A stretch of DNA of 64,000 nucleotides from Sulfitobacter sp. BSw21498. GTDB lineage: Bacteria; Pseudomonadota; Alphaproteobacteria; Rhodobacterales; Rhodobacteraceae. Within the stretch, counting starts at the first letter, position 1. Each line of letters starts with the position of its first letter. The stretch is taken from NCBI RefSeq assembly GCF_006064855.1, contig NZ_CP040753.1:2108001-2172000 (forward strand), read 5' to 3'. The notes under the pieces are model-generated. The model was not told the origin of the DNA. It did no database searches and saw nothing but the letters and a program-made list of their open reading frames with translations. Made by a program: the position numbers and the translations under genes. Below, in pieces: positions 46,693 to 59,936 of this stretch.

Positions 46693-47766
46693 TCAGGCGG
46701 CGTGCGCCAGGATCGCCGCTTCGGACATCGAAAGATTGCGCCGCGCATAGCCGCCATAGGTATGCGGATCGGACCCAATCTGGGGGAACTGGTCCAGCAG
46801 ACGCGCACGGTCTGCGGCGTCTAATGCTTCCAGCGCGGCAGAGGCCGGGTGAAAGCTCTCGGTCTCGACGCCGTTGGCCCAAAGCACCTCGTGGAAATCA
46901 AGCAGCAGGTGGATATAGGTTACCTCGCGCGCGTGGGCATCGATGGTGACACTGCGCCCGTTCACCAGATCACGTGCGGTGACCAAGACCTCGTCGGTGT
47001 TAAACAGCGCGTGTGCGACGGGGCCTTTCACCAGCATCCGGTGGCTGGGCGACACCAGCAAATCCGCGTCAGGCCGCGCAGCCCCCAAAGCATTGGCGCG
47101 AAAGCGGACAGGCCGCAGCTGAGGCATGGCGAACAAACGTGCGCCGCTCATCCGGCGGCTGCCAATCCAGCGCACGGGTTGCAGGCCGTTATCCTTAGTC
47201 TGGATCAAATCGTCTTCGCGCAGATGCTCGATGAGGCGGGCACCGTCGGCGGTGCGGATCATCGTACCGGGGGTAAAGCAGATCACCCCGCTGCTATGCT
47301 GCGCCGCGCGATCTGCAGCGGCTGTATTCAGCGTATGCGAAACCACCCACAAATCAGTGTTACGCGGCGGCAGTGCGTCGAGGAACATCAGCAGCGGCTG
47401 GCTGCCCTGCCCGACTTCGATCACCGTCACCAGATAGCTTTGCGCCCCGTCGGTCACGGTAAAACTGTTGTCCATCAACGGGGTGTCACGGTCGCTGGCA
47501 AAGGTCCGGTGTGGTGGCACGGTGCCGTCCAACGCAGTCCCCACCAAACGATGCACCATCCGCGCAGCCCGTCTGCGCAGGTCACCTGCTTCGTCTGCCT
47601 GATCCAGCCGCAACACGTCATTCGGCCCGTCAACGCGAAGTGAATCGCCCCGCCACGCCCAAGCTGCCCCCACCTTCAGGGATTGCACCGGTGCGGCGTC
47701 CAGCCCGTCTATTTCTGTCTGCGACCAGCTTATGACAAACGTGCCTCGAAAGCCCGTTTTGACCAC
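46693..47766 (-). CDS. Hint-domain protein
   Basis: A 357-residue protein with a Hint (hedgehog/intein) autoprocessing domain in its C-terminal half: it begins at GVICFTPGTMIRTADGARLIEHL, with the nucleophile Cys in ICFTPGT, and includes VSPSHRMLVKGPVAHALF and a later YIHLLLDFHEVLWANG. The N-terminal 170 residues include repeats of strand-rich sequence and an RTFASDRDTP segment, without clear family. Such proteins are abundant in roseobacters, and their role is unknown. No signal peptide or C-extein follows the Hint block, so any processing would release the N-terminal part. It stands alone and is convergent with tlpA. Confidence 0.82.
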   Translation of the reverse strand: MVKTGFRGTFVISWSQTEIDGLDAAPVQSLKVGAAWAWRGDSLRVDGPNDVLRLDQADEAGDLRRRAARMVHRLVGTALDGTVPPHRTFASDRDTPLMDNSFTVTDGAQSYLVTVIEVGQGSQPLLMFLDALPPRNTDLWVVSHTLNTAAADRAAQHSSGVICFTPGTMIRTADGARLIEHLREDDLIQTKDNGLQPVRWIGSRRMSGARLFAMPQLRPVRFRANALGAARPDADLLVSPSHRMLVKGPVAHALFNTDEVLVTARDLVNGRSVTIDAHAREVTYIHLLLDFHEVLWANGVETESFHPASAALEALDAADRARLLDQFPQIGSDPHTYGGYARRNLSMSEAAILAHAA

Positions 47767-54140: not shown

Positions 54141-54156
54141 CACCCGCCCACGAGAA

Positions 54157-54192
54157 AGGCGGCGCAGGTTTCCCCGCGCCGCCTCATATTTT
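54157..54192. terminator. Terminator between nagA and the selenoprotein gene
   Basis: Stem AGGCGGCGC (54157-54165) and GCGCCGCCT (54176-54184), loop of ten bases, followed on the plus strand by CATATTTTT. It serves nagA and possibly also stops the convergent selenoprotein transcript. Confidence 0.75.
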
Positions 54193-54200
54193 TGCGTCAG

Positions 54201-54722
54201 TCACGCGTCGCGCAACGCCCCGATGATCTGGTCGAACGCCTCGCGGGCCTTGGCCCGCATTTCGTCGTCCGTGGCATCCTGAATAGGATGCGGCACCAGC
54301 ACATAGCGCGCGCCCTCCATGCCTAACGCCTTGCGCTGCGTTTCAGCGGCTTGGCCGAACACGCTCGAAGCGATAGAAACAGACGGGATCCCCTGGATTT
54401 CAAACCAGACTGTATCGTGCATACTGCACGTGGTACATGATCCTCAGTCCGCCAGCCCTTCGACCAGAAAGTCGCATTCATCGCGGATCTGGTGGCGCAG
54501 CGTGTCGGGGCACGGTTTGGCGAAAGTCGGCTTGGTATAGTGCCGGATCTCAACGCCGGGTGCGTTTTCGGTCAGCAACCTGTCCAGTTCATCCAGCAGG
54601 ATATTGCCACGTGGCTTGCTGATATTCAGCAGCCCGACAACCCCCTGCACCGAACCGGAACGTTCGCTGATCTGACGCGCGACGGGGACACGTTCGTCCG
54701 TCGGGTCAAGAATTATTGTCAT
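54201..54722 (-). CDS. UGSC family selenoprotein (in-frame TGA read as selenocysteine)
   Basis: A 173-residue protein when the TGA at 54446-54444 is read as Sec (residue 93). Both halves are in one frame, and the junction reads GLAD-Sec-GSC-TTCSMHDTVWFE, giving the motif for which the UGSC (seleno)protein family is named. The N-terminal part has GLLNISKPRGN; the C-terminal part has GIPSVSIASS and YVLVPHPIQDATDDEM, seen in the family. The TTC-MHD...GIP stretch recalls glycine-reductase B-type proteins. AGGAGG precedes the ATG. The partner gene ends 24 bp upstream. selB, selA and tRNA-Sec lie in the same direction. The terminal stop is also TGA. The redox function is unknown. ORF callers split it into two false pieces. 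Confidence 0.88.
54411..54437 (-). promoter_or_regulatory. Bacterial SECIS-like hairpin after the Sec codon
   Basis: On the minus strand, 18 bases separate the TGA from the loop. Lower stem TGTA/TACA, an internal CCA/A bulge, upper stem CGTGC/GCACG, loop AGTAT with G at the second position. A G in the first two loop bases and this distance match the known bacterial SECIS model. It is the expected SelB-binding element. Confidence 0.75.
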
Positions 54723-54746
54723 TCACGTCCTCCTCTGCTGTGAAAC

Positions 54747-56336
54747 CTAGCCCAGATCGATCTTTCTGGAAACGGAAATCGACCCCACTTCGCCCGTGGC
54801 CCACCCGTGGAACGCGGACGAGAATTTGCCCGCATCCCCACCAGCCACGACGATATGGATGTATTCCTTGCTTGCGAATTTGGGGGCAAGCTGCGCCAGC
54901 TTCTCCGGCCCCATGCGTTCGGCATCCGCCACGGGGATACCCGCACCCGAATGATCGTCCTGCACCATCTCGGACAGCGGGCGCGCGGTGACCTGCTGAA
55001 TGCGGTCGCGCAGCCGGTCCTTGGAATAGGGGCCATCGACGGTCAGCGTCTTGATATGTTCAGGGCAGACCACCAGCAGCGCGTCGATGGGCAGGTTGTG
55101 CATCTTGGGCAGAAAAACTCCTTCAAGCCCCTGCCCCAGCGACCCTGCAATCTGGTCCGGCTTGCGCGAGGTCTGGTCCACCAGATGCACCGGCCCACCG
55201 GTCATGGCAAAGACGGTCACGACAGACTCCTCCGCCTTGAACCCCCGCTCCACATGCAGCGGCTCCCAGGGGGAGCGTTCTTCGTTCTCGGCAAAGCACA
55301 TGGTGTATTTCATCGGATTGCCCAAAACCGACCGTTCGACGCCGCCCGTAGTCGCGCCGCCGACGTTGCGAATGATCAACCGCAGGGCGCGCCCGATGGT
55401 GGCGTTGGCGCGGTTGCCGGCCCCCAAAGCCCCTAGCCCGCCATTCAACCCGATCTGGTCCACAATCGGTCCGTTGACCACCATCACCGTGGCCGCGCCC
55501 ATGGTGGTGGCCGTGACCCCGTGAATGTTGAATTCGTCGGTGCAGACGGCCTCTACCGCGGCGATCACCACGGGCAGATATTCGGGCTTACACCCTGCCA
55601 TCACCGCATTGATCGCGATCTTTTCGACCGTGGCGATGCCCATGTTTGGCGGCACCGTGGCAACGACATCCTGCGGATCACGGTGCGTCCCCTCTAGCAT
55701 GCGGATCACCCGTTCAGGCGTCGGCGGCACCAAGGGCAACCCGTCCGAAAAGCCCTGATCGAACATGAATTCCGCCATGTCATCACCGCTGGCGACCTCT
55801 ACCTTGCGGGCGCGCAGACGGCTGCCGTCGGCCTCGGCCCGCAGGGTGTCATACACCTCGGGGTCAAAGTGTTTCGACCCGCATCCAGGGCGCCAGGCAG
55901 GCAGGCCGTCCCAATCAATCTGCGCCGCAGCTTTGCCCGTGGCACTGGCCATCTGATCAGACAACGCCTGCCAGTCATCGCGCACGAAGCCTTCGAAATG
56001 AGTCACAACCTCGCCGCTTTCGTCGATCCAGTACACCGCCGGCACGATCTCGAAATCCCAGTTGAACGAGGTCTTGCACCCCGCATCCTCCAGCACCGGC
56101 ATGGTCAGCCCGTGGCGCTGTGCGAAATCGGCGTTCTTCTCGCCCGACTGCCCCGGCACCAAAAACCGGACAGCATCGCCATAGGCCTGCGACAGTGCTT
56201 GCAGAACAGGCCCCGCGATATTGCAGGTCTCGCAATCCTCTTTCACAAAACAGATCAACGCAGGGCCCGTGCCGTCAAAATGATGGGCTGCCCCCTCCAG
56301 ATCATTCAGCGTAAATTCCGGTTTCTGATCGCTCAT
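54747..56336 (-). CDS. Thioredoxin-fold fusion protein, partner of the UGSC selenoprotein
   Basis: A 529-residue cytoplasmic protein with two parts. Residues 1-130 form a thioredoxin-like domain with CXXC active site ECETC-type (Cys35-Glu-Thr-Cys38), a third Cys87 in AGCKTSF and the cis-proline in EIVPAVYW (Pro99). A GCGSKHFDP motif sits at 151-159. Residues about 170-529 are a large domain I cannot name, with FSDGLPLVPPTPERV, AGCKPEYLPVVIAAVEAV and GGAGDAGKFSSAFHGWATG-like ends. The ATG at 56336 has GGGAGGGGG upstream; the longer frame runs antisense through the tRNA gene. The selenoprotein gene follows by 24 bp. It probably exchanges electrons with the selenoprotein (inference). Confidence 0.82.
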   Translation of the reverse strand: MSDQKPEFTLNDLEGAAHHFDGTGPALICFVKEDCETCNIAGPVLQALSQAYGDAVRFLVPGQSGEKNADFAQRHGLTMPVLEDAGCKTSFNWDFEIVPAVYWIDESGEVVTHFEGFVRDDWQALSDQMASATGKAAAQIDWDGLPAWRPGCGSKHFDPEVYDTLRAEADGSRLRARKVEVASGDDMAEFMFDQGFSDGLPLVPPTPERVIRMLEGTHRDPQDVVATVPPNMGIATVEKIAINAVMAGCKPEYLPVVIAAVEAVCTDEFNIHGVTATTMGAATVMVVNGPIVDQIGLNGGLGALGAGNRANATIGRALRLIIRNVGGATTGGVERSVLGNPMKYTMCFAENEERSPWEPLHVERGFKAEESVVTVFAMTGGPVHLVDQTSRKPDQIAGSLGQGLEGVFLPKMHNLPIDALLVVCPEHIKTLTVDGPYSKDRLRDRIQQVTARPLSEMVQDDHSGAGIPVADAERMGPEKLAQLAPKFASKEYIHIVVAGGDAGKFSSAFHGWATGEVGSISVSRKIDLG

Positions 56337-56399: not shown

Positions 56400-56494
56400 T
56401 GGCGGAGACGGATGGGAATCGAACCCACCACACGCCGTATCGACGCGTCCATGGTTTTGAAGACCAGGGAAGCCACCAGACTCCGGTCGCCTCC
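56400..56494 (-). tRNA. selC: tRNA-Sec, anticodon UCA
   Basis: The minus strand folds as a long selenocysteine tRNA of 95 nt with encoded CCA (56400-56402). The acceptor arm begins GGAGGCG and pairs with CGTCTCC (seven clear pairs; the eighth is A·C), discriminator G. The anticodon loop CTTCAAA gives UCA at 56460-56458. The long variable arm has an ACGC/GCGT stem, and the T loop TTCGATT sits on a five-base stem. It lies between selB and the fusion gene. Confidence 0.95.
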
Positions 56495-56536: not shown

Positions 56537-58408
56537 CTAATGCGCAGGCTTTACCATGTGCCGTGTGTCGTTCTCCCGCAGAGTGATACCTTGGGCGTCC
56601 AGATGCTCAAGCAGCGGCACGATAAACTTGCGGCTCGTCGCCAAGGCACTGCGTGCCTCGCCGGTGGTAAAGGCCATGGGCGGAGGGAAGGCCGCCGCGA
56701 GGGTCCGCTGCGCTTGTCTGATGGTCGCTTCATGAAACACAACCTGCTGCTTCAGCGCGATATTAGGCAGCGATACCAGCCACCCCTGACCCACCATCAG
56801 GGCAATCAGATCAGCGTCGTCCGGCGCATCGAACTGCCGCAGGTCAGGGGGGGTGGTGCCGCCGGTACGAATACTCTCTTCAATCTCCGTCAGGCGCGCC
56901 GCCTGTTGCGCGGCAAGTGCTGCAAAGGGATCATGCTGCGCCAGACCAATCAAACCATCGCGCAACATGACCTCGCCCGACTTGACCAGCGCGGCTTGGG
57001 CAAAAGGCACCAGCGCCCGCAGCGGCGTCACCTGTTGTAGCAAAGCAGGCGCGGCCCCCTGCTTTATCGGATGTTCGGCATGAAATCCCCGCAACGCCCC
57101 CAGCAGCGCCTCTTGCACCGCCGCAAAATCATCGGTCAACGCGAGATGATCTGCGGACAGGGGCACAGTGCCCTCTGGCAAGCCTACAGTCTCTTCACCA
57201 CGCGCCAGTCGCATCATATCAGCCCGGAACGCTACACCGCGCCCTTGGCCACATAGCGCTGCCGCGATGGCCGCCGCGTCTTGAGTGTGTGCCGCCTGCA
57301 GAACCGCAAGCCGCCGCTTGTCGCCCGCCCCGACCGCAGTGGCTTGCGGGTCCAGAATCACCGCACCCGCCAGCGTCGCCGCGGGCGAAAGCTGGCGCAG
57401 CACCGCCGCCTGCCTTGCAAAGCCGACCACCGGCTGTTTAAACCGAAGCTGCCCCAGCCCCGTCCCACCCGGCGCGATCTGCCCGCCGCCCATCAGCCGC
57501 AGTGTCGCGACCTCATGCGCGGTGCCCCAGAGCACGCGCAGCTCTTGCATATGTTTGACCGGTCGCGCCGCACTGGCAGAGACGGTCAGCGCCACGTCCA
57601 TACATGCAGACGGTGCGTATGCGGTCCCACACAGGACATCACCGCGCGCCACCTCTTCAACCGAGATGCCGCGCAGGTTCACGGCAACCCTCTCGCCTAT
57701 CTCGACCCGTTTCCGCGCAGTACCGCGCGATTGCAGCCCGCGCACGACCGTTGCTGCGGCGCGTGGCTGAACCACAAGCGCATCGCCAACAGACAGCGCC
57801 GCCCCAAGCAACGTCCCCGTCACCACCGTGCCACGCCCCGCCAAAGTGAACACCCGATCCACCGGCAGGAAAGCGCCCGCCGGAACCGCCCGTGGTGGCA
57901 GGTCTGAAAACTGCGCCGCCAGCGCCTGTCTCAGCCCGTCCACCCCGCCAGCGGTCGTGGCTGAACAGGGCACCAGTTCGGCCCGCGTGACACCCTGCGC
58001 CGCAAGGGCATCGCCAATCGCGGCCAGCCGCGCTGGCAGATCGTCAGCAGGGATCAAATCGGCCTTTGTCACCGCGACGACAGCTACTGGGACCTGCAAC
58101 AGCTGCGCAATCTGCACATGCTCGCGCGTTTGCGCAGCTACGCCATCCACAGCAGAAACCACCAGCAGCGCGCCCTGCGCCCCGCTTGCGCCAGACACCA
58201 TCGTGCGCATGAAATCCTCGTGTCCCGGTGCGTCAATCAGGTCAAGTGTACCGCCTGCCATCTCGCAATGCGCAAAGCCCAGCGCGATCGACAGACCACG
58301 GGCTTTCTCTTCGGCCAGCCGGTCCGTTTCCATGCCTGTCAACGCCCGCACCAACGCCGTCTTGCCATGGTCCACATGGCCGATCACGATCACACAGGCC
58401 GATGTCAT
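56537..58408 (-). CDS. selB: Selenocysteine-specific elongation factor
   Basis: Delivers Sec-tRNA to UGA codons marked by a SECIS hairpin. The 623 residues start with a GTPase domain: GHVDHGKT (P-loop, residues 9-16), DAPGHEDF switch II and TKAD-type specificity segment (VTKADLIP). EF-Tu-like beta domains follow (about 170-340), then C-terminal winged helices (about 430-623) that read the hairpin in the mRNA. The ATG overlaps the selA stop by four bases. tRNA-Sec follows 42 bp downstream. Confidence 0.96.
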   Translation of the reverse strand: MTSACVIVIGHVDHGKTALVRALTGMETDRLAEEKARGLSIALGFAHCEMAGGTLDLIDAPGHEDFMRTMVSGASGAQGALLVVSAVDGVAAQTREHVQIAQLLQVPVAVVAVTKADLIPADDLPARLAAIGDALAAQGVTRAELVPCSATTAGGVDGLRQALAAQFSDLPPRAVPAGAFLPVDRVFTLAGRGTVVTGTLLGAALSVGDALVVQPRAAATVVRGLQSRGTARKRVEIGERVAVNLRGISVEEVARGDVLCGTAYAPSACMDVALTVSASAARPVKHMQELRVLWGTAHEVATLRLMGGGQIAPGGTGLGQLRFKQPVVGFARQAAVLRQLSPAATLAGAVILDPQATAVGAGDKRRLAVLQAAHTQDAAAIAAALCGQGRGVAFRADMMRLARGEETVGLPEGTVPLSADHLALTDDFAAVQEALLGALRGFHAEHPIKQGAAPALLQQVTPLRALVPFAQAALVKSGEVMLRDGLIGLAQHDPFAALAAQQAARLTEIEESIRTGGTTPPDLRQFDAPDDADLIALMVGQGWLVSLPNIALKQQVVFHEATIRQAQRTLAAAFPPPMAFTTGEARSALATSRKFIVPLLEHLDAQGITLRENDTRHMVKPAH

Positions 58409-59796
58409 GGGGCGGCAATCGTACCGAGTGCGGCAACGATATCAGGCAATTCCGCATCGGTGACTGTGCGCATATCCAGCCACAGCTTTCCCTGATGGAT
58501 GCGCGCGACGACCGGCACCGGCCCCCCGCGCAGCCGGTCGCTAAGCGCTTCCGGTGAAAGGGCATCACAGGCCACCACGACGCTTACGCTTTCCAAGTCC
58601 TGCTGTGGCAACGATCCGCCACCGACATAGGCAGCGGACGGGGTCACCGATGCTGTGACGCCATTCATAGCTTCTACAGACGCCGCCAGTTTGTGCGCCC
58701 GCACCTCGACTTCAGCCAGGGGCTGCGACAACGCTTGCAACACAGGCACCCGTGACAGCGGATTATGGGGCGGCAGGTACAGTCGCAAAGTTGCCTCAAG
58801 TGCTGCGAGGGACAGCTTATCGATCCGCAAAGCCCGCAGCAGCGGATGCTTGCGCAACCCTGCAATAATGTCGGCTCGCCCCGCAATGATGCCCGCCTGT
58901 GGCCCGCCCAACAGCTTGTCACCCGAGAACATGACCAGATCGACGCCCGCTTTCAAAATATCCGCCACCACCGGTTCATCCCGCAGACCGAAGGGCGACA
59001 GGTCAATCAGCACGCCGCTGCCCAGATCTTCCATCAGGATCAGGTCCCGCTCTGCTGCCAATTGCGCCAAAGCCGTGCGTGACGGGGCAGAGGTAAATCC
59101 AACAATGCGAAAATTGCTGGTATGGCTTTTCAACAGAACCGCCGTGTCCTCATCCACCGCGTCGGCATAATCGCTAAGCCGTGTTTTGTTCGTGGCGCCG
59201 ACTTCTTTCAGGACTGCCCCGCTTTGAGCGATGACGTCGGGCAGGCGGAATGATCCGCCAATTTCGATCAGCTCCCCCCGCGACGCGATCACCTTGCGCC
59301 CCGACGCGGTTCCCATCAACGCCAGCACCACCGCCGCGGCGCAGTTGTTCACGATCAGCGCCGCCTCTGCACCCGTCAAATGGCAAATCAGCGCCTCGGC
59401 ATGGTCATACCGCGATCCACGCTTGCCGGTAGCAAGGTTCAGTTCAAGGTTCGACGGACGCGCACCGATGTCGCGCATCGCTTGCAAGGCTTCGGGCGCA
59501 AGGCGGGCACGGCCAAGATTGGTGTGGATGATGATACCCGTCGCGTTGATCACGGGACGCAGGTTCGGCTGGCGGGCCACCTCGATCCGATCTGCAAGGG
59601 TGCGGGCAAAACCCTCGCTGGTAAAATCAGGCAGCTCGACAGCCGCGCCGCTCAGGATTTCGCCGCGCAGCGCGTCCAGTGTCAGCCGCAGGGCGCTGCG
59701 CACTTCCTCGTGGCTATAGGCGGCGACCACCTGGGCAATCGGTGGCTGCTGCAACAACGTGTCGATCTGTGGCAAATGTCTTAGCTGGCTGTTCAC
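58405..59796 (-). CDS. selA: L-seryl-tRNA(Sec) selenium transferase
   Basis: PLP enzyme converting Ser-tRNA-Sec to Sec-tRNA-Sec with selenophosphate. With the GTG at 59796 it has 463 residues, the length of E. coli SelA, and starts with the expected LRHLPQIDTLL. An ATG at 59865 adds 23 residues that look unlike the family. PLP lysine in FSGDKLLGGPQAG; also INATGIIIHTNLGRA and NNCAAAVVLAL. It is the first gene of the Sec operon, overlapping selB by four bases. No selD is in the window, so selenophosphate must come from elsewhere. Confidence 0.95.
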   Translation of the reverse strand: MNSQLRHLPQIDTLLQQPPIAQVVAAYSHEEVRSALRLTLDALRGEILSGAAVELPDFTSEGFARTLADRIEVARQPNLRPVINATGIIIHTNLGRARLAPEALQAMRDIGARPSNLELNLATGKRGSRYDHAEALICHLTGAEAALIVNNCAAAVVLALMGTASGRKVIASRGELIEIGGSFRLPDVIAQSGAVLKEVGATNKTRLSDYADAVDEDTAVLLKSHTSNFRIVGFTSAPSRTALAQLAAERDLILMEDLGSGVLIDLSPFGLRDEPVVADILKAGVDLVMFSGDKLLGGPQAGIIAGRADIIAGLRKHPLLRALRIDKLSLAALEATLRLYLPPHNPLSRVPVLQALSQPLAEVEVRAHKLAASVEAMNGVTASVTPSAAYVGGGSLPQQDLESVSVVVACDALSPEALSDRLRGGPVPVVARIHQGKLWLDMRTVTDAELPDIVAALGTIAAP

Positions 59797-59936
59797 GCGT
59801 CGCCCCCCGATGGCTGGAGGTGCAGTGTATTCACGCCCGCCCGGGGGGCAAGCGAGATCGGTCACCGCATCAGCGCCGCGCGGTACAGCAGCACACCACC
59901 ACCACCGGCAAACCGCGGCCCATTACATCGCCAATG

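Follow-up and report, generated by a model that had tools for sequence, protein, structure and literature searches.

The described systems closest to the locus considered here are the UGSC selenoprotein family itself, the selenoproteins of glycine and D-proline reductase (GrdB/PrdB, PF07355), the ResA/TlpA thiol-disulfide oxidoreductases, and thioredoxin reductase (TIGR01292). The accessible text of the Global Ocean Sampling (GOS) survey places UGSC among the major marine selenoprotein families, with 255 selenocysteine (Sec) forms versus 21 Cys forms (PMC2398784), and the available part of a 2026 review counts it among the selenoproteins with largely uncharacterized functions (PMC13188914). 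For glycine reductase, the accessible sections of PMC10298544 describe thioredoxin, a substrate-binding Sec protein, cleavage of a Se–C bond and formation of a selenenylsulfide; this mechanism, together with that of D-proline reductase given in the same source, is the model for the proposal made below. We analyzed a 64,000-nucleotide stretch of the Sulfitobacter sp. BSw21498 genome (hereafter the window; feature positions are collected in Table 1), which carries on its minus strand a UGSC-family gene and, immediately upstream of it, a gene for a 529-aa protein (hereafter the partner). The UGSC gene almost certainly encodes a genuine selenoprotein, judged from its sequence and that of its relatives, and the two proteins may together form a thiol-driven reductase. 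Marine Sulfitobacter are aerobic heterotrophs, not Stickland anaerobes.

Two minus-strand open stretches (54722–54444 and 54422–54201) share a common frame and are separated by a lone TGA at 54446–54444; reading through this codon yields a protein of 173 residues, with the TGA as codon 93 in the context LAD-U-GSC-TTC. A previous sequence-only reading of this DNA had described the single-TGA arrangement, the LAD-Sec-GSC junction, Sec93 and the AGGAGG ahead of the ATG, all of which were borne out, the latter at a spacing of 6 nt. The read-through protein scored 175.6 bits against NCBIfam NF041046 (cut-off 125) and 164.1 bits against Pfam PF24696 (cut-off 25), and both alignments span the TGA, confirming the family assignment and the expected alignment of homologues across the codon. 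In near full-length sequence, UGSC motif, Sec codon and SECIS (selenocysteine insertion sequence), as well as in the marine abundance given in the accessible text of PMC2398784, the window protein matches this family without essential difference; it is one more member of a family that is already known. It is also the only UGSC copy in the host genome (3.24 Mb, 2 contigs).

We compared the gene across 80 related loci, the best 80 of 298 stretches from a scan of genome contigs, all of them close relatives (67–99% identity). The Sec codon was TGA in 80/80 loci, with no further in-frame stop and lengths of 170–174 residues; the closest named relative was S. litoralis (UGSC 99%, partner 96% identity). 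For 11 relatives picked from these loci, dN/dS against the window gene was 0.05–0.23 before the TGA and 0.04–0.18 after it for 10 of the 11, the remaining one having no usable dS, in line with the earlier impression of conserved sequence on both sides. The one stop in the frame and the database pieces that end there could also reflect a pseudogene or a true stop between two separate short genes; we nevertheless consider this extremely improbable, and rejected it, given the invariant TGA within an open frame, the purifying selection that persists 3′ of it, the SECIS, and the adjoining Sec machinery. Among database relatives, 5 of 13 sequences inspected terminate exactly before the Sec codon. 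The expectation that standard annotation would call such a gene a pseudogene or two hypotheticals was off in that NCBI has a family model; the truncated entries nevertheless indicate that protein databases capture such Sec genes badly. In P0002–P0004 the Sec position is given as G or W, probably the product of gene callers with other genetic codes.

By these sequence comparisons, Sec93 is decoded by SelB and tRNA-Sec through a SECIS hairpin directly 3′ of the UGA. A bacterial SECIS, according to the accessible text of PMC1088965, lies just 3′ of the UGA and has a G in a small apical loop, and the window hairpin shows both this position and the apical G. The pattern CGUGCA-GUN-UGCA[C/U]G was found behind the UGA in all 70 distinct stretches (83 loci: the 80 plus L001, L002, and L004), the C/U variant retaining pairing as G-U. 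When we tested the 85 codons whose amino acid is kept in ≥90% of the 80 sequences and for which silent variation is possible, only ACG TGC AGT at +5 to +7, which together constitute the SECIS 5′ stem and loop, were invariant. One of the two DNA patterns used to fetch the loci spans codons +6 to +13, with +5 outside, and the 44 UGSC copies from the fetched regions described below were found by protein model, not by DNA pattern. In a diverse set of 53 sequences, 41 of them from UGSC paralogues or relatives, covariation was 0.249 versus 0.129 in shuffled alignments, and standard pair cells made up 84.2% versus 75.1%, neither value being reached in 500 shuffles (0/500 each); one pair swaps from C-G to G-C in 10 of the 53 sequences, and pairing drops to ≤47% when the partner strand is slid. 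Two of five covariation measures were not above the shuffles (pairs with double change, 461/500; further pair types, 316/500), and the −3 and +3 slides yielded 34 and 26 double-change cells versus 24 unslid, which counts against the hairpin. The folding energy of the window stretch alone was not significant (z −0.83; 41/200 shuffles fold as well), and L004 and L094, of the 70 distinct stretches, fold otherwise by minimum energy. We accordingly discarded the folding of single sequences as an argument for the SECIS, which is supported by invariant codons and covariation and not by its stability.

The distribution of UGSC was determined in a family sample (295 genomes of the host's family) and a class sample (289 genomes of its class). 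In the family sample, PF24696 matched in 6/295 genomes, five over the cut-off and a sixth (G273) under it, and SelA was over the cut-off in 10/295. SelA was over the cut-off in 3/3 genomes with TGA-type UGSC (G000, G113, and G212), and in neither of the two genomes with Cys-type UGSC (G014 and G205, the frame of G205 being broken as well). The sequence-only reading had proposed looking for Cys in place of Sec in homologues and had said that random stops and frame loss in close relatives lacking the Sec machinery, or a failure of homologues to align across the TGA, would speak against it; neither refuting outcome was observed, and Cys is what these two genomes have at the site. In the class sample, UGSC was present in 28/289 genomes, with up to 8 copies per genome (G840), and 70 of 71 PF24696 matches contained exactly one TGA. 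SelA was over the cut-off in 27/28 UGSC genomes versus 41/289 class genomes overall, the exception (G687) being 77% complete. Since 27 of the 41 genomes with SelA have UGSC, 26 of these with TGA, UGSC may be a main reason these bacteria retain the selenocysteine machinery.

As a side observation on this distribution, four loci labeled Acidobacteria or Sulfopaludibacter (L081, L082, L086, and L090) have UGSC DNA 87–95% identical to that of a Hyphomonas locus (L092), and three of them carry its identical 72-nt SECIS stretch; this likeness reflects either inter-phylum transfer or contaminated bins.

UGSC is almost always accompanied by its partner. The partner sequence lies directly upstream of UGSC in 75/76 loci with ≥1.65 kb upstream; at the remaining one, L068, it is also in place, with a break in its alignment. 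We then considered 42 regions selected for a UGSC match (L097, L098, and L161–L200), of which 40 cover 42/71 class matches and two come from the family sample; in 41/42 a partner domain adjoins UGSC, the exception being L173, and in total the regions hold 57 partner copies and 44 UGSC copies. The UGSC motif has TGA in 41/44 copies, with Cys in L097 and L179 and a broken Cys form in L098. Gene order varies, running either from the partner to UGSC or from UGSC to one or two partner copies. Across the class sample, the partner was detected in 29 genomes, namely the 28 UGSC genomes and G931, whose match is partial (positions 18–83 only, inside the thioredoxin-like part); partner copy numbers are lower bounds, as five candidates were scored per genome. 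A functional partnership of UGSC and the 529-aa protein is on this genomic evidence very probable, and the near-strict pairing suggests a two-part enzyme.

The partner itself is a composite. Its N-terminal domain (~135 residues) shares both the fold and the CxxC motif (CETC, C35/C38) of the ResA/TlpA thiol-disulfide oxidoreductases; unlike these, the partner adds a large C-terminal domain for which there was no Pfam or NCBIfam family match. Profile comparisons of the C-terminal domain with GRDB, with UGSC, and of its two halves with each other revealed no similarity; it contains two conserved cysteines, of which Cys249 is retained in 54/57 copies and Cys347 in 47/57. The TlpA-like N-terminal domain is recognizable in 6/42 regions, weakly in four of these. 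At L179 (G896), a Cys-type UGSC is found together with a partner lacking the C249 and C347 cysteines, though this genome has SelA.

The predicted UGSC model (pLDDT 93.1) is a strictly alternating (βα)5 structure without the strand pair of thioredoxin, its best structure matches are flavodoxin-like or Rossmann-like, and Sec93 is placed at a strand end/helix start of this fold. A thioredoxin-like fold had been supposed in print for UGSC. Thioredoxin follows the topology βαβαββα; we rejected such a fold for UGSC on the basis of the predicted (βα)5 topology and of an hhalign comparison with the TlpA-like domain of the partner, whose score of 16.7 is near the null mean of 15.2. No thioredoxin-like chain was among the matches listed for the model, an observation that alone excludes nothing.

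Profile comparisons relate UGSC to the GrdB/PrdB family. Sequence searches of the PDB, started from UGSC or from the first GRDB set, yielded weak matches only (E ≥0.14). When aligned by hhalign to a GRDB-family set of 17 proteins, including 10 Sec-containing ones, UGSC reached a probability of 74.8, an E-value of 2.6e-5 and a score of 38.8, with Sec on Sec; the block-permuted null had a maximum of 27.8 (0/100 above). Masking the Sec and +3 Cys columns left a probability of 34.2 and a score of 31.4, with 0/60 permuted profiles above 27.2. UGSC also carries UxxCxxC (U93-GS-C96-TT-C99), the motif given for GrdB in the available part of PMC13188914. A remote homology of the UGSC Sec domain with the GrdB/PrdB family is likely on this profile similarity around Sec, and a thiol-type electron supply would be a further likeness. 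In contrast to GrdB/PrdB, UGSC has a partner that looks unrelated and carries a fused redoxin. PF07355 was not found in the host genome, and the control genomes also gave none, though the model matches elsewhere: 22 matches were obtained in 9/16 UGSC genomes. In ten PF07355 loci of UGSC-rich genomes (L206–L215), all 10 had an in-frame TGA in UPxC with the frame open across it.

We then inspected the neighbors of UGSC for a supply of electrons, scanning 130 of 132 selected open reading frames (ORFs; two were left out for size) defined by a crude rule that includes spurious frames. The commonest NCBIfam matches were thioredoxin reductase and its AhpF-like kin (7 members), and CAxC was present in 7/7 inspected sequences of this thioredoxin reductase-like type. 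Such a gene lies ≤400 bp from the UGSC unit in 9/42 regions, on the same strand in 8, with one more at 4 kb; the density was 9 in 199 kb at distances up to 2.5 kb from the units versus 1 in 455 kb beyond. CAxC flavoproteins resembling thioredoxin reductase thus adjoin some UGSC paralogues, whereas none was seen beside the window UGSC, where the redoxin domain of the partner stands instead. Other neighbors included amidohydrolases, luciferase-like monooxygenases, CoA-transferases and ABC transporters, and the non-thioredoxin-reductase families among the 130 ORFs are too heterogeneous to point to a substrate.

We propose that UGSC is the Sec subunit of a two-part, thiol-driven reductase that would work like glycine or proline reductase. 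The C-terminal domain of the partner would bind an organic substrate, which the selenolate of Sec93, at the helix start of the flavodoxin-like fold, would attack; a carbon–heteroatom bond would then be broken reductively with the help of Sec93, as in glycine or D-proline reductase, and Cys96 of the UxxC motif would resolve the selenium intermediate as a selenenylsulfide. Re-reduction of UGSC could fall to the ResA/TlpA domain (CETC) of the partner, a role that a thioredoxin reductase-like neighbor may take for some paralogues; in the window, the fused TlpA domain would supply the electrons. The pairing of UGSC with the partner and, in part, the thiol supply can be read from the genomes, while the substrate, the bond and the UGSC–partner interaction are what we infer. 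We lean slightly toward this proposal as the best explanation as a whole. That the enzyme is a thiol-driven reductase appears reasonably probable, and that it cleaves a C–X bond reductively, rather than performing another reduction, is plausible but somewhat doubtful.

Several observations weigh against this proposal. In 27/42 regions we saw no fused TlpA-like domain and, within 2.5 kb, no thioredoxin reductase-like gene. The GRDB set derives from Pseudomonadota with modest Pfam scores and does not include the characterized clostridial GrdB/PrdB, and earlier comparisons with 7 PF07355 sequences were weak (probability 5.1 and 4.4), although the latter comparison, with a score of 17.0, was reached by 0/300 permuted profiles (nearest 16.8); the 7- and 17-sequence comparisons differ both in sequences and in the hhalign column setting. 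The UGSC protein had no PF07355 match at E ≤10, a search in which the HMMER filters drop most matches >0.1, and we call the GrdB link remote because of this lack of a direct match. PF09338, the family of the pyruvoyl-type partner subunit GrdE/PrdA, was detected in 0/25 genomes and not in the host genome either, with the control likewise matching nowhere. In addition, the second Cys of UxxCxxC is absent in some UGSC paralogues, the predicted fold of the partner C-terminal domain is only partly confident, and the partner is interrupted, though in place, at L068 and is partial, reading with a stop, at L089.

Two other functions were weighed against the thiol-driven reductase. The UxxC motif of UGSC and the ResA/TlpA domain of its partner would suit a thioredoxin/peroxiredoxin-like antioxidant, in which a thioredoxin-fold UGSC reduces peroxides or protein disulfides and the partner serves as its redoxin; we consider this improbable, because the confident (βα)5 model with its flavodoxin-like matches lacks the thioredoxin strand pair, the UGSC profile does not resemble that of the TlpA domain, and the presence of up to 8 copies per genome together with amidohydrolase, monooxygenase, CoA-transferase and ABC-transporter neighbors suggests substrate catabolism. 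These catabolic neighbors are also in line with a selenol enzyme that is no net reductase (e.g., a nucleophilic transferase, lyase or dehalogenase), in which Sec93 would act as a covalent catalyst and thiol partners would merely keep the selenol reduced. Such an enzyme, which is unlikely in our view but deserves somewhat more credence than an antioxidant, would also be consistent with the position of Sec in the flavodoxin-like fold, with the high conservation of C249 in the partner, and with the regions where no redoxin or thioredoxin reductase was seen nearby. Against it, the fused or adjacent redoxin or thioredoxin reductase in the other 15 regions and the remote kinship to the GrdB/PrdB reductases favor a stoichiometric need for electrons, as the thiol-driven reductase would have.

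In the parts of the selenoprotein literature accessible to us, we found no tested function for UGSC, which agrees with the sequence-only reading that its biochemical role is unestablished, and no flavodoxin-like fold or GrdB-type relationship. The same literature held no account of the partnership or the operon, apart from a reported fusion of UGSC to an 'Unknown_1' domain (PMC2398784), for which comparison with the partner was not possible.

The genes of the window follow the minus-strand order selA, selB, tRNA-Sec, partner, UGSC, and finally a 13-bp hairpin (Table 1). The selenocysteine genes had been described as lying directly upstream of UGSC; they are upstream, but the partner gene, which the sequence-only reading had overlooked, stands between tRNA-Sec and UGSC. 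The hairpin likely marks the end of the operon, and was not listed by a consensus terminator scan because its T tail is weak. Promoter and terminator scans were uninformative, with 1 promoter site versus 1.1 expected and 3 terminator-like sites versus 5.1 expected, none of them at the UGSC end.

Table 1 Features of the UGSC locus (window positions).
Feature	Positions	Strand	Remarks
13-bp G+C-rich hairpin	54156–54185	−	just 3′ of UGSC stop; z −5.4
UGSC-family selenoprotein gene	54201–54722	−	173 aa; TGA 54444–54446 = Sec93; motif U93-GS-C96-TT-C99
SECIS hairpin CGTGCA-GTA-TGCACG	54416–54430	−	starts after 13 nt from UGA; apical G = 20th nt
Shine-Dalgarno AGGAGG	54729–54734	−	6 nt 5′ of UGSC ATG
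Partner gene	54747–56336	−	529 aa; stop 24 nt before UGSC ATG
tRNA-Sec	56400–56494	−	anticodon TCA; ARAGORN; Rfam RF01852 70.7 bits
selB	56537–58408	−	family models
selA	58405–59865	−	family models; 4-nt overlap with selB; exact start uncertain

The Sec machinery accompanies UGSC in related loci as well: tRNA-Sec was found in 71/76 loci for which 2 kb of upstream DNA was available, selB in 65/68 with 4 kb, and selA (on either strand) in 61/64 with 5.5 kb. Rfam did not recover tRNA-Sec in L031, L073, L080, L089 and L093, where it may be encoded elsewhere in the genome. At L031, selA, selB, the partner and a TGA-type UGSC are present, and neither ARAGORN nor Rfam detected tRNA-Sec in 20 kb; at most other loci it lies between selB and the partner. 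Between the window and L016–L023, SelB identity is 46–56% (partial-length in L017 and L019) and that of UGSC and the partner 89–95% and 84–87%, respectively, so that SelB diverges far faster, despite the invariant SECIS that it should read. SelD is present in the host genome, and the SelD and FdhA-type matches there have no in-frame TGA. The SelD match (G000:C1:2465321–2466208) lies inside a 733-residue open frame, longer than SelD alone, which is possibly the Ndh-SelD fusion mentioned in the accessible text of PMC2398784.

Elsewhere in the window, positions 46693–47766 encode a 357-aa protein with a stretch that we take to resemble a Hint-type self-processing domain.

Tentatively, UGSC and its partner may represent a so far unnamed class of Sec-dependent reductases of free-living heterotrophic bacteria, in which a Sec domain of the GrdB/PrdB type is joined by a new subunit that binds the substrate and has a conserved cysteine, and by a thioredoxin or thioredoxin reductase of its own; this class would have expanded to as many as 8 copies per genome for the reductive breakdown of various organic compounds. 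If true, such a class would explain why UGSC ranks among the commonest marine selenoproteins. Given a defined partner, a fold prediction and a distant relative whose chemistry is known, an unknown protein becomes a two-gene enzyme open to purification and assay.
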